A stretch of DNA of 64,000 nucleotides from Chitinophagaceae bacterium (GTDB lineage Bacteria; Bacteroidota; Bacteroidia; Chitinophagales; Chitinophagaceae), in NCBI GenBank assembly GCA_028288585.1, contig JAQBNL010000043.1, forward strand, positions 1 to 64,000, given 5' to 3'. A program made the position numbers and the translations under genes. How positions within the stretch are numbered: the stretch's first letter is position 1; each line of letters opens with the position of its first letter. The notes under the pieces are model-generated. The model saw nothing but the letters and a program-made list of their open reading frames with translations, made no database searches and was not told the origin of the DNA. Of this stretch, positions 2,698 through 16,955 are shown in pieces.

Positions 2698-2705
2698 CGG
2701 TGAGA

Positions 2706-5700
2706 ATGAACCTGGATGTGTTGTTGAATAGTTATCAAAATGATCACCGCATTTTTACAATAGCGGACAGGATCGGTTTGTCCCAACCGCAAAAACTTCA
2801 CCTTTCAGGATTGCAGGGAAGCGCCTCCCAGTTTATCATCAACGCTGTTTTTAATCACCCTGCGGCATCTAAGATTAATCACCTTGTTATCTTAAGAGAT
2901 GCCGAAGAAGCTGCCTATTTCCACAACACTTTGGAGAATATCAGCAATGCTTTAAACATATTTTATTTTCCATCTTCTTTTAAAACAAAGAAAAATTACA
3001 GGTTGCTAAACAGCAGCCATGTAATGTTGCGTACAGAATGTCTTACTAAATTTTCAACCGCAACAGAAGGAGCAAGAGTAGGTGCAGTTATAACTTATCC
3101 TGAAGCGTTGTTTGAGAAAGTAGTTCTGTCTAAAACACTATCATCAAATATTATTTCTTTTAAGCAGGGAGAAACCATTGATGTTGATGGGATATTGAAA
3201 CGCTTTGTGGAATACGGTTTTGAAAGAACAGACTTTGTATATGAGCCAGGCCAGTTTGCTGTTCGTGGGGGTATATTGGATATTTATTCTTTCGGAAATG
3301 AAAAGCCTTACCGGATAGAATTATTTGGAAACGAAATTGACAGCATACGAATTTTTGATCCGGAGAACCAGTTAAGTGAAAGAAAATTATTGCAGGTAAA
3401 TATTATTCCCAATGTAGAAACGCAATTTGATTCAGGCGAAAAAGTTTCTTTACTGAATTTTCTCCCGGAGAATACTGCTGTATGGACAGAAGATTGGGAT
3501 TTCATAAAAGAAAAAGTTGTTCAGCAGGAAGAAGATCTGGAAACATTTTTAGAGATTGAAAAGATAAATAAGCCACAAGCTTCAGGTCACAAGTTGCAGG
3601 AGGAGTATGATGAGCTAAGTGAAAAAGCAGTAGTTAGAGAAAAAGATTTTGTAAAGGCTGGTGTTTTAGAAGAGCAAATAAAACAAAGGCATGTAATAGA
3701 GTTTGGCAGAAAAAGCCCATCCCTGCAAACCTCCAAAATGGAGCAAAATGTTACTGAAGTCCCTTCCCGAAAGGAAGGGAAAGAAGCCTTAAGCCTTTCA
3801 ACATTAGAAGAATTTTCAAAAGGGAAAGAAACAAACAAACTAAGTTCCCCCTTCGGGGGACAGGGGGCCGTCTCTTTCAACATTAAAGAACAGCCCGCCT
3901 TTAACCGTCAATTCAATCTTTTAATTCAAAACTTAAAAGAATTTGAACAAAAGAAATACAACATCTTTTTATTTGCCGAGAATCCAAAGCAATTAGAAAG
4001 ACTGCACAGCATTTTTGCTGATCTTAAGGCAGAGATACAGTTTACACCAATACCAACTTCTATCCATGAAGGATTTATTGATGATGATCTTAAATTGGTT
4101 TGCTATACTGATCACCAGATATTTCAGCGCTATCATAAATACAAAGTAAAACAGGCATTCAGCAAGAATAAAGCGCTTACTTTAAAAATGCTTCGTGAAT
4201 TGCAGCCGGGAGATTTTGTTACACATATTGATCATGGAGTTGGTGTGTTTAGTGGATTACAAAAGATCGAAGCCAATGGAAAAGTACAGGAAGCCGTAAG
4301 GATTGTTTATAGAGACAATGACCTTCTCTATGTAAATATTTCTTCTTTACATAAAATAAGTAAGTATAGCGGCAAAGAAGGAACAGTGCCTAAAATGAAT
4401 AAGCTTGGCAGCGATGTATGGAATAAATTAAAGGACAAAACAAAGAAGCAGGTAAAGGATATTGCTACAGATCTTATAAAATTATATGCACAAAGAAAAA
4501 GCTTAAAAGGCTTTGCGCATTCTCCTGATAATTATATGCAAACGGAGCTGGAAGCATCTTTTATTTATGAAGATACGCCTGACCAGAATAAAGCTACAAT
4601 TGATGTGAAGCGTGATATGGAGAAACCTTCACCAATGGACAGGCTGGTTTGTGGTGATGTTGGTTTTGGTAAAACAGAGATCGCAATAAGAGCAGCATTT
4701 AAAACCTGTCTGGATGGTAAACAGGCTGCAGTATTGGTTCCTACAACTATCCTTGCTTACCAGCATTACAAAACTTTTGGCGATCGATTAAAAGATTTTC
4801 CTGTAACGGTTGATTATATTAACCGCTTTAAATCATCTAAAGAAAAAAAAGAAACACTTAAAAAATTAGAAGAAGGTAAAATTGATATTATCATCGGCAC
4901 ACATGCTTTGCTAAGTAAAGATGTAAAGTTTAAAGACCTCGGTGTAATGATAATTGATGAAGAACAAAAGTTTGGTGTAACATCAAAAGAAAAATTAAAG
5001 CAGATAAGAACGACTGTAGATTCTCTTACGCTTACGGCAACACCAATACCCAGAACTTTACAGTTTAGTTTAATGGGCGCAAGAGACCTGAGCATTATTA
5101 ATACACCACCACCCAATCGTCAGCCTATACAAACAGAAGTGCATGTATTTGATGCAGACTTTATAAGAGAAGCAATCTATTATGAAACTGAAAGAGGCGG
5201 CCAGGTATTCTTTATTCATAACCGTGTACATGGATTAGCAGAAATGAAGGGATTAATACAAGGCTTGTGTCCTGATCTCAGCATCGCATTTGCCCATGGA
5301 CAAATGGATGGTGATACATTGGAAGAAACTATCCTTGACTTCATGGATAAAAAATATGATGTGCTTGTTTGCACCAATATTGTTGAAAGCGGGGTTGATA
5401 TTCCTAATGTAAATACCATCATTGTAAATAATGCACACCAGTTTGGTTTGAGTGATCTTCACCAGTTAAGAGGAAGGGTTGGAAGAAGTAACCGGAAAGC
5501 ATTCTGTTATTTACTGGCCCCGCCAATGAGTACATTGCCTGCAGACAGCAGGAAGCGTTTATCAACTTTAGAACAATACAGTGACCTTGGCAGCGGTTTC
5601 CAGATAGCAATGCGTGACCTTGACATTCGTGGTGCAGGAAATTTATTGGGAGGCGAGCAAAGTGGTTTTATTGCAGAGATAGGTTTTGAGATGTATCAGA

Positions 5701-6248
5701 AAATTCTTGATGAAGCTATAAGAGAATTAAAACGTAAAGAATTCAAAGAATTATTTAAAGAAGAGATTCAGCAACAGGATGATTTTGTGAAAGATTGTAC
5801 CATTGATACTGATCTTGAGATATTAATTCCTGATGATTATGTAGAAAGCATTACAGAAAGACTGAGCCTGTATTCAAGGCTGGATAATTGTGAGAATGAA
5901 AAAGAATTAAATGATTTTCATGCAGAAATGATCGATCGTTTTGGTCCAATACCACCGCAGGTGGAAGACCTTTTTACCACTGTTCGTTGCCGAAAAATTG
6001 CTGTGGAGCTTGGGTTTGAGAAGATGTTGTTAAAAAACGAGAATTTAAAATGCTTCTTTGTAAGCAATCCTGAATCGCCTTATTTTCAAAGCGAAACTTT
6101 TACGGGCATTTTAAAATTCATTCAAACAAAAACCAATAAAGCCAGGCTAAAGCAGGTTGGCAGGAATGGGATATTAATTGTAGAGAATATAAAAACCATG
6201 ACTGAACTATGGGAATTCTTAAACAGGATGGAAGAAAGTATTGATTAA
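2706..6248 (+). CDS. mfd: Transcription-repair coupling factor Mfd
   Basis: Mfd displaces stalled RNA polymerase and recruits the UvrABC excision machinery. From ATG 2706 it is 1180 residues (GTG 2700 is an alternative), slightly long for the family. Order seen: N-terminal UvrB-like module, the RNA-polymerase-interacting domain with DHGVGVFSG at about residue 507, RecG-like helicase with Walker A GDVGFGKT at about 650, the DEEQ box at about 749, GRVGRSNRK at about 922, and a C-terminal TRCF domain. Residues about 300-400, between the UvrB-like part and the polymerase-binding part, form a low-complexity linker encoded by hairpin-rich DNA (see repeat). All helicase motifs are intact, so it should be functional. 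It converges on the sugar-transferase gene with 7 bases between them. Confidence 0.97.
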   Translation: MNLDVLLNSYQNDHRIFTIADRIGLSQPQKLHLSGLQGSASQFIINAVFNHPAASKINHLVILRDAEEAAYFHNTLENISNALNIFYFPSSFKTKKNYRLLNSSHVMLRTECLTKFSTATEGARVGAVITYPEALFEKVVLSKTLSSNIISFKQGETIDVDGILKRFVEYGFERTDFVYEPGQFAVRGGILDIYSFGNEKPYRIELFGNEIDSIRIFDPENQLSERKLLQVNIIPNVETQFDSGEKVSLLNFLPENTAVWTEDWDFIKEKVVQQEEDLETFLEIEKINKPQASGHKLQEEYDELSEKAVVREKDFVKAGVLEEQIKQRHVIEFGRKSPSLQTSKMEQNVTEVPSRKEGKEALSLSTLEEFSKGKETNKLSSPFGGQGAVSFNIKEQPAFNRQFNLLIQNLKEFEQKKYNIFLFAENPKQLERLHSIFADLKAEIQFTPIPTSIHEGFIDDDLKLVCYTDHQIFQRYHKYKVKQAFSKNKALTLKMLRELQPGDFVTHIDHGVGVFSGLQKIEANGKVQEAVRIVYRDNDLLYVNISSLHKISKYSGKEGTVPKMNKLGSDVWNKLKDKTKKQVKDIATDLIKLYAQRKSLKGFAHSPDNYMQTELEASFIYEDTPDQNKATIDVKRDMEKPSPMDRLVCGDVGFGKTEIAIRAAFKTCLDGKQAAVLVPTTILAYQHYKTFGDRLKDFPVTVDYINRFKSSKEKKETLKKLEEGKIDIIIGTHALLSKDVKFKDLGVMIIDEEQKFGVTSKEKLKQIRTTVDSLTLTATPIPRTLQFSLMGARDLSIINTPPPNRQPIQTEVHVFDADFIREAIYYETERGGQVFFIHNRVHGLAEMKGLIQGLCPDLSIAFAHGQMDGDTLEETILDFMDKKYDVLVCTNIVESGVDIPNVNTIIVNNAHQFGLSDLHQLRGRVGRSNRKAFCYLLAPPMSTLPADSRKRLSTLEQYSDLGSGFQIAMRDLDIRGAGNLLGGEQSGFIAEIGFEMYQKILDEAIRELKRKEFKELFKEEIQQQDDFVKDCTIDTDLEILIPDDYVESITERLSLYSRLDNCENEKELNDFHAEMIDRFGPIPPQVEDLFTTVRCRKIAVELGFEKMLLKNENLKCFFVSNPESPYFQSETFTGILKFIQTKTNKARLKQVGRNGILIVENIKTMTELWEFLNRMEESID
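3731..3860. repeat. Hairpin-rich in-frame insertion inside mfd
   Basis: Three successive perfect inverted repeats lie within 130 bases of coding sequence: CTCCA/TGGAG at 3731-3743, CCCTTCC/GGAAGGG at 3761-3779 with a 5-base loop, and TCCCCC/GGGGGA at 3846-3860 with a TTC loop, followed by a G-rich run. They look like intergenic palindromic repeats rather than codon-driven sequence, and they encode a Ser/Lys/Glu-rich linker in frame. The helicase motifs downstream stay in frame. Confidence 0.7.
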
Positions 6249-16184: not shown

Positions 16185-16955
16185 TTATTTTTTGCCCTTT
16201 AAAAGCCTCTGATATAAATATTGCCATATCGTTGGGTGATACCACAAAAAACTTTTATTTGTATTGGTTTCAGTAATTATAGTGCCGTTAAAAGCATTTT
16301 TCAATGCCTTTTTTACATATGGAATCCCTTCAGCTAGTTGAAGCAATGGATAGGTTACAAAATTGTCTTTCTCAGTAACAGTTATCCTTTTTTGGTATAT
16401 TATTTTTCCTGTATCAATACCTGTATCAACAAAATGTACAGTTACACCACAATTTTCTTTATCATTATTTACTAATGCCCAGTACCCGCCATGCACTCCC
16501 CTGTATTGGGGAGTGATACCTGCATGTATATTTATAAACCTTGCTGGTATACTGTTAAGTATGTGTGCAGAAATAATCCTGGTTCCGTTTACCAGCACTA
16601 TATCAGGGTGTATCTTTTGCAAACTATCCCGACATTCTTTATCATTAACCGATTTTACATGAATAATTTTTTCTCCGGGCAAAGCCGAATCATCCAGGTT
16701 ATATTTTAATAAGATCTCTTTTTTTCTTTTTTTAGATCCGATCTCTAATATTTTTGGGACAAAAAGCTGAAATAATATTTGACCGGCAACCTTCCATAAC
16801 CCAAGCTTTTTTACCCGCTTTTTTAAAAACTCTTTTTTGCTTACAGGCTCTTCTAAAATAATGGCTTCTATCGCAAATTCATTTTTTAAAGCATTGTAAA
16901 GAATATTAGTAGAAGCTCCTTTACCTGCTACCATCACTATCTTTTTATCTTTCAT
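16185..16955 (-). CDS. Formyltransferase-family protein (second type)
   Basis: A 256-residue protein with the formyl_trans_N core in its C-terminal half: N142 and H144 in INIHAGITPQYRG and VDTGIDTG at 177-183 give the Asn-His-Asp catalytic set. The N-terminal half starts with a Rossmann-like MVAGKGASTN and a basic stretch. It is not closely similar to the formyltransferase at 9909-10637, so the two probably act on different sugars. The gene overlaps the upstream polysaccharide deacetylase gene by 11 bases, suggesting coupled production. Deacetylation followed by N-formylation is a possible pathway but is inferred only from this arrangement. Confidence 0.78.
   Translation of the reverse strand: MKDKKIVMVAGKGASTNILYNALKNEFAIEAIILEEPVSKKEFLKKRVKKLGLWKVAGQILFQLFVPKILEIGSKKRKKEILLKYNLDDSALPGEKIIHVKSVNDKECRDSLQKIHPDIVLVNGTRIISAHILNSIPARFINIHAGITPQYRGVHGGYWALVNNDKENCGVTVHFVDTGIDTGKIIYQKRITVTEKDNFVTYPLLQLAEGIPYVKKALKNAFNGTIITETNTNKSFLWYHPTIWQYLYQRLLKGKK

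Follow-up and report, generated by a model that had tools for sequence, protein, structure and literature searches.

In this Chitinophagaceae bacterium, the gene for the transcription-repair coupling factor Mfd contains a short stretch crowded with GC-rich hairpins, which raises the question of whether a palindromic element entered the coding sequence and, if so, what kind of element it is and what moved it. A sequence-only reading of the window (the whole 64-kb stretch of DNA analysed) had proposed such an insertion, tolerated between protein domains. Its presence in four of 29 mfd loci and its DNA copies elsewhere bear this out, and the element proved to go beyond that reading: further genes carry it in frame as well, and there are longer forms, sharing its ends, that code for a DUF559 nuclease.

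A discrete insertion in the linker of an intact Mfd

The features of the locus are as follows.
2700..6248, + strand: mfd (transcription-repair coupling factor), the host gene, from its open reading frame and Pfam domains; 1182 aa, intact
3713..3869, + strand: inserted element of ~157 bp, both tags included (about residues 338-390), from its absence in 25 of 29 mfd loci, the alignment and copies elsewhere
3713..3731, + strand: left tag with the module AAGCCCATCCC...CAAACC, conserved across the 16 left modules aligned
3753..3780, + strand: left hairpin module (8-bp stem at 3760-3780), from the left-module alignment and the hairpin count
3781..3839, + strand: variable spacer of ~60 nt; the full-length form in metH of genome G031 has 404 nt with the DUF559 nuclease here
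3840..3868, + strand: right hairpin module, encoding LSSPFGGQGA; 40.2 bits to the right-end model R1, its sole match in the window

The mfd frame is open, and all five Pfam domains were found in the 1182-aa product (UvrB_inter at residues 152-238, the CarD/RID domain CarD_TRCF_RID at 501-557, DEAD, Helicase_C and TRCF), in agreement with the earlier view of an otherwise intact Mfd. The linker encoded by the insert stretch sits between the UvrB_inter part and the part towards the RID domain, a position that we take to be near the D1b-D3 linker of the E. coli Mfd structure. Residues 245-455 stay unaligned when Mfd is aligned to 6x26.

Three perfect GC-rich inverted repeats had been described at this place. 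Two of them, at 3760-3780 (8-bp stem, CGAAA loop) and 3846-3860 (6-bp stem, TTC loop), are perfect and GC-rich as stated, whereas the third, a CTCC/GGAG repeat at 3731-3743, has a 4-bp stem and falls below our hairpin threshold (stem of at least 5 bp, at least 4 G/C, loop of 3-8 nt). The latter has no counterpart in the aligned related left modules; being weak and not shared, it was discarded as a part of the element. The other two make up half of the four hairpins above threshold in mfd, and dinucleotide-keeping shuffles of 3731-3860 (n = 500) contain 0.12 hairpins on average, so that two are unexpected by chance. When 3700-3890 was folded as single-stranded DNA, the z-score was -2.4 (2 of 200 shuffles fold equally well). 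At gathering thresholds, Rfam returned no match within the window. The sole other strong GC-rich hairpin of the window lies at 16494-16515 (8-bp stem CACTCCCC, loop TGTATT).

Mfd is present in 58 of the 59 genomes searched. Thirty mfd loci were fetched, including that of the window, and fixed anchors allowed a length measurement in 29 of them (L029 is without the upstream anchor). The inter-anchor length is 147-171 nt in four loci (the window, G009, G015 and G019) and 18-84 nt in the 25 loci without the insert. Among the latter is the close relative G010, whose Mfd is 94% identical over residues 389-1182 and 92% identical over residues 2-340, and whose 33-nt linker keeps a YFSK motif, as do many insert-free loci. 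As the earlier reading had anticipated, alignment with relatives leaves about 40 residues extra in the window's Mfd relative to G010 and 24 other measured loci. The stretch had been correctly located at 3731-3860, its extent too narrowly: the unit, with boundaries placed by eye from conserved modules, runs from about 3713 to 3869. The mfd insert is a discrete insertion in a linker of an intact protein.

The dN/dS ratio is 0.25-0.98 inside the insert vs 0.03-0.05 over the remaining gene, and synonymous divergence among the same four loci is 0.28-0.58 inside vs 0.67-1.55 outside; the lower value inside could mean that the DNA itself is constrained, or that the insert is younger or has recombined. 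The four insert bearers form no tidy clade, three segments of mfd yield different trees, and the G019 gene looks mosaic. At the same place in mfd, genome G003 carries an unrelated low-complexity repeat of CTCACAACTC / TCACCACTCACAACTC type (L027), showing that the Mfd linker tolerates unrelated insertions.

Architecture, dispersed copies and reading frame of the element

Searching the genome for DNA copies, as had been suggested, returned 15 matches to 3711-3890 at E<=1 (self included), the better ones spanning one or both hairpins and two showing the same multi-part order. Across copies, this order is left tag, about 25 nt, left hairpin, variable spacer and right hairpin, and it recurs in the genus both between genes and in frame in metH. 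With the copy on contig C38 of this genome as query, matches were found in six of 20 genus genomes, including 19 places in G009; the single 19-nt match in G010 may be due to chance. Two near-identical contig-end loci of this genome (L003 and L004, on C38 and C4) differ mainly in the inter-hairpin spacer and are possibly strain variants in which the spacer was replaced.

Right ends also occur alone, or as outward inverted pairs. Model R1, built on 35 right ends, describes sequence only because RNAalifold found no common fold among them; it matches in 35 of 294 family genomes (at most 24 candidates were scored per genome, so high per-genome counts are lower bounds). In Cnuella takakiae (G266), a variant right end occurs 98 times within three mismatches, compared to 0 for the reversed-pattern control. 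Thirty-eight neighbouring ends lie closer than 700 nt, where random placement would give 1.1, and all but one of these (37/38) are outward inverted pairs, 20 of them spaced 116-145 nt. Exact matches in named genomes comprise 27 stretches, from Cnuella, Flaviaesturariibacter, Ferruginibacter, Terrimonas, Chitinophagaceae, Chitinophagales or Sphingobacteriales records. A constant target-site duplication was not found among 20 elements: one carries a long direct repeat, and in the rest direct repeats do not exceed 7 nt. The single case is an intergenic copy (L055, G015:C299) flanked by a 30-bp direct repeat.

The ends are translated in a preferred frame. Taking 36 right ends from 29 loci, we counted 17 forward ORFs (100 aa or longer) that overlap an end: 14 in the LSSPFGGQGA frame, two in the second and one in the third, the last being a 112-aa ORF that is probably spurious. 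All eight clearly gene-internal right ends (four in mfd, four in metH) use the LSSPFGGQGA frame; the palindromic repeat thus lies in one frame within unrelated conserved genes. In N-terminal cases, the frame hinges on the translation start chosen. Reversed right ends are located at the 3' end of an ORF in L002, L008, L073 and L006, and in L002 the end supplies the stop codon. The translated peptides are of low complexity, with SPSxQTS...APSRxEGE at the left end and LSSPFGGQGA at the right end.

Nuclease-bearing counterparts of the element

Full-length counterparts that bear a nuclease occupy another gene, metH. At one metH site, G009 and G015 carry the short form, whereas G003 and G031 carry a form with a DUF559 domain. 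In G031, the left and right modules are 404 nt apart, compared to 47-60 nt in six short copies, such that a short derivative has the ends of a full form, as in MITEs. In the MetH of G003, the DUF559 domain lies in frame between the left-module and right-module peptides; the left module there was recognised only by eye and by BLAST-like resemblance, the left-module regular expression giving no match at this locus. Cnuella has DUF559 at the same metH site with its ends arranged differently. This one metH site was occupied recurrently in three genera (G003, G031 and Cnuella), and a single IcmF site likewise in four genomes (G009, G010, G015 and G080).

The DUF559 family (PF04480) matches a full-length relative with 118 bits (gathering cut-off 20.6). 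It was found in all 11 genomes picked for ends or kinship (48 matches, 24 in long frames, i.e., at least 250 aa from stop to stop) and in 126 of 296 genomes of the phylum, where 45 of the 150 matches listed are in long frames. We scanned 29 proteins with Pfam, comprising 27 of 30 fetched long frames and the MetH proteins of G003 and G009. The DUF559 domain is embedded in, or sits between, the host domains of MetH, LeuS (five loci), AcsA (this genome, G000:C89), IcmF, AroC, HsdR (four loci), HsdM and one type ISP restriction protein. In ArgB (two), TrpA and CinA it comes ahead of the host domain, and in one frame it comes after a GATase_5 domain (PurL-like); in another frame a DNA methylase domain is the sole neighbour, and L233 has no other family at 1e-8. 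No intein family was detected by Pfam in the 29 proteins. One HsdR (L252) has two nuclease domains, GIY-YIG and DUF559 (residues 251-317 and 443-547), between HSDR_N and the ATPase domain. Among the matches listed from 394 family genomes, no full-length nuclease copy was found in mfd, the longest listed Mfd frame being 1235 aa.

The catalytic E, D, E, D and H columns are kept in 30 of 30 embedded DUF559 copies. For IcmF, dN/dS is 0.06-0.12 in the nuclease and 0.05-0.08 in the host part, and for AroC 0.21 vs 0.08; in the ArgB and LeuS pairs, the nuclease part is too diverged. Four loci (L203, L209, L218 and L223, of which L218 and L223 were named IcmF by resemblance only) have DUF559 at a similar IcmF-type position in four genomes of two genera, with purifying selection in the three compared, making the IcmF nuclease an old, perhaps domesticated insert. 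A solved relative is 3hrl, an 'Endonuclease-Like Protein', and a DUF559-containing Vsr-like protein is described in PMC12907096.

Hairpins are usual near DUF559 domains embedded across Bacteroidota and surround most of the nuclease copies examined. Comparing the left flank with the reverse complement of the right flank at 57 DUF559 loci (three of 60 had flanks too short), 39 exceed the 95th percentile of controls that include some element-bearing loci (Mann-Whitney 2e-22), and the remaining 18 do not. Under a stricter first control set, only three of the 57 exceed the 99th percentile: terminal inverted similarity is moderate, and its support comes from the shift of the whole distribution in the 39/57 comparison. 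At the same 57 loci, nuclease identity correlates with end similarity once same-host pairs are excluded (rho 0.305, a value reached in 0 of 300 permutations), a figure inflated by some stand-alone pairs with common neighbourhoods; for embedded copies alone, rho is 0.206 (reached in 2 of 300). Several other families have DUF559 genes amid arrays of longer palindromic repeats, and G033 has DUF559 with no match to the right end.

Origin of the mfd insert and its significance

We consider it likely that the mfd insert is a non-autonomous, nuclease-less copy of a palindrome-ended, in-frame, non-spliced element encoding a DUF559 (Vsr-like) endonuclease. Such an element would enter host genes in frame at tolerant linkers, where its tag-plus-hairpin ends would be translated as low-complexity linkers, with no sign of splicing, and in the full form the nuclease would remain as an extra domain of the host protein. 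The DUF559 nuclease may cut or nick the target and/or recognise the ends, thereby moving both forms. The short form would have arisen by internal deletion; in the mfd copy, the nuclease is missing and the left and right modules are joined by ~60 nt that add a spacer peptide to the linker. These observations suggest a gene parasite that is retained in the protein as an additional segment rather than being spliced out.

The main remaining rival, which we regard as unlikely, is that the palindromes form an independent REPIN/MITE-like family serving as landing sites for DUF559 genes, the 'full' copies being nucleases in older short elements. Ends far outnumber DUF559 genes in Cnuella (98 ends vs four DUF559 matches), some DUF559 genes lie within the longer repeat arrays, and at two metH loci the short form alone is present, all in favour of this explanation. 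However, end types differ between DUF559 copies of different host genes and end similarity follows nuclease similarity; moreover, nuclease-bearing copies occupy the same metH site in three genera, with one end type in G003 and G031 and another in Cnuella.

Mobilisation by a RAYT-type tyrosine (Y1) transposase, as for classical REPs, is improbable. The outward inverted pairs of tag-plus-hairpin ends are REPIN-like and Y1_Tnp genes are present in these genomes, but none of 45 Y1_Tnp loci (31 + 14) has the right end within the fetched flanks, which yielded only a single weak resemblance to the left tag (L102) and two short stretches resembling a tag (L020 and L096). The RAYT-like genes of this genome (L019, L020 and L022) adjoin other palindromes, e.g., TGTCCTGAGTTTGTAACTCAGGACA near L019, indicating that several repeat families coexist here.

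Two separate palindrome insertions around a native piece of linker, with no single composite element, are very improbable: the window copy has FSK in its spacer, as in the G010 linker, and right ends can stand alone, but the other three mfd copies lack this resemblance and the same order with similar spacing is found at metH and between genes. An ordinary fast-evolving linker with chance palindromes, which would fit the rapid evolution of the insert and the 18-84 nt range of insert-free linkers, is refuted by the dispersed DNA copies, with their common frame and order.

Inteins and intron-borne homing endonucleases also place a nuclease domain inside conserved genes. As with these, one site is used repeatedly here (metH, three genera); unlike in inteins, no splicing domain was recognised in the 29 proteins scanned and the nuclease appears to remain in the host protein. 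The nearest precedents are Rickettsia palindromic elements and the REP/RAYT system. The former, together with intragenic GTAG/CGTC REPs, are likewise short in-frame palindromes in conserved, often repair, genes whose extra peptide is tolerated (PMC3733652, PMC10969869). They belong to other sequence families and another phylum, and the accessible parts of these papers report no same-ended long DUF559 forms of the kind found here. Similar to REP-associated tyrosine transposases and their REPINs/BIMEs, an enzyme gene lies within inverted tag-plus-hairpin ends and many shorter inverted pairs are enzyme-less (PMC2817692), whereas the enzyme here is a PD-(D/E)XK Vsr-like nuclease (DUF559) rather than a Y1 HUH transposase, and in-frame insertion inside genes is common. 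Bacterial MITEs and RU/ERIC-type repeats with ORFs are likewise short repeats that have no enzyme of their own and give genes additional translated peptides (PMC2759123); the elements described here differ in having no constant target duplication and hairpins with a tag as ends. In the open-licence literature, we found no paper on a DUF559-palindrome element, and none of the papers found there that name DUF559 is about mobile inserts, judging by their titles.

A broader reading, to which we give an even chance, is that Bacteroidota harbour a class of selfish elements, spread across the phylum, whose DUF559 nucleases would fill the role that RAYT has for REPs, each nuclease lineage having its own tag-plus-hairpin ends. 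Members would home, in frame and without splicing, to set positions in housekeeping and restriction genes, and the mfd insert would be one of the nuclease-less 'coding MITEs' that they shed. If so, host proteins such as MetH, LeuS and acetyl-CoA synthetase would carry an active nuclease domain, or the scar of one, as a permanent feature. The likely origin of the mfd insert from a DUF559 element, if true, would offer a candidate mobilising enzyme for the G/C-hairpin repeats of Bacteroidota, explain why low-complexity linkers such as LSSPFGGQGA turn up repeatedly in housekeeping proteins, and suggest a role for DUF559, a large family still named 'unknown function'. It would also add, besides inteins and introns, another lifestyle for nuclease genes in conserved genes, that of being translated and tolerated, and it makes testable whether a scar-bearing repair factor works normally.
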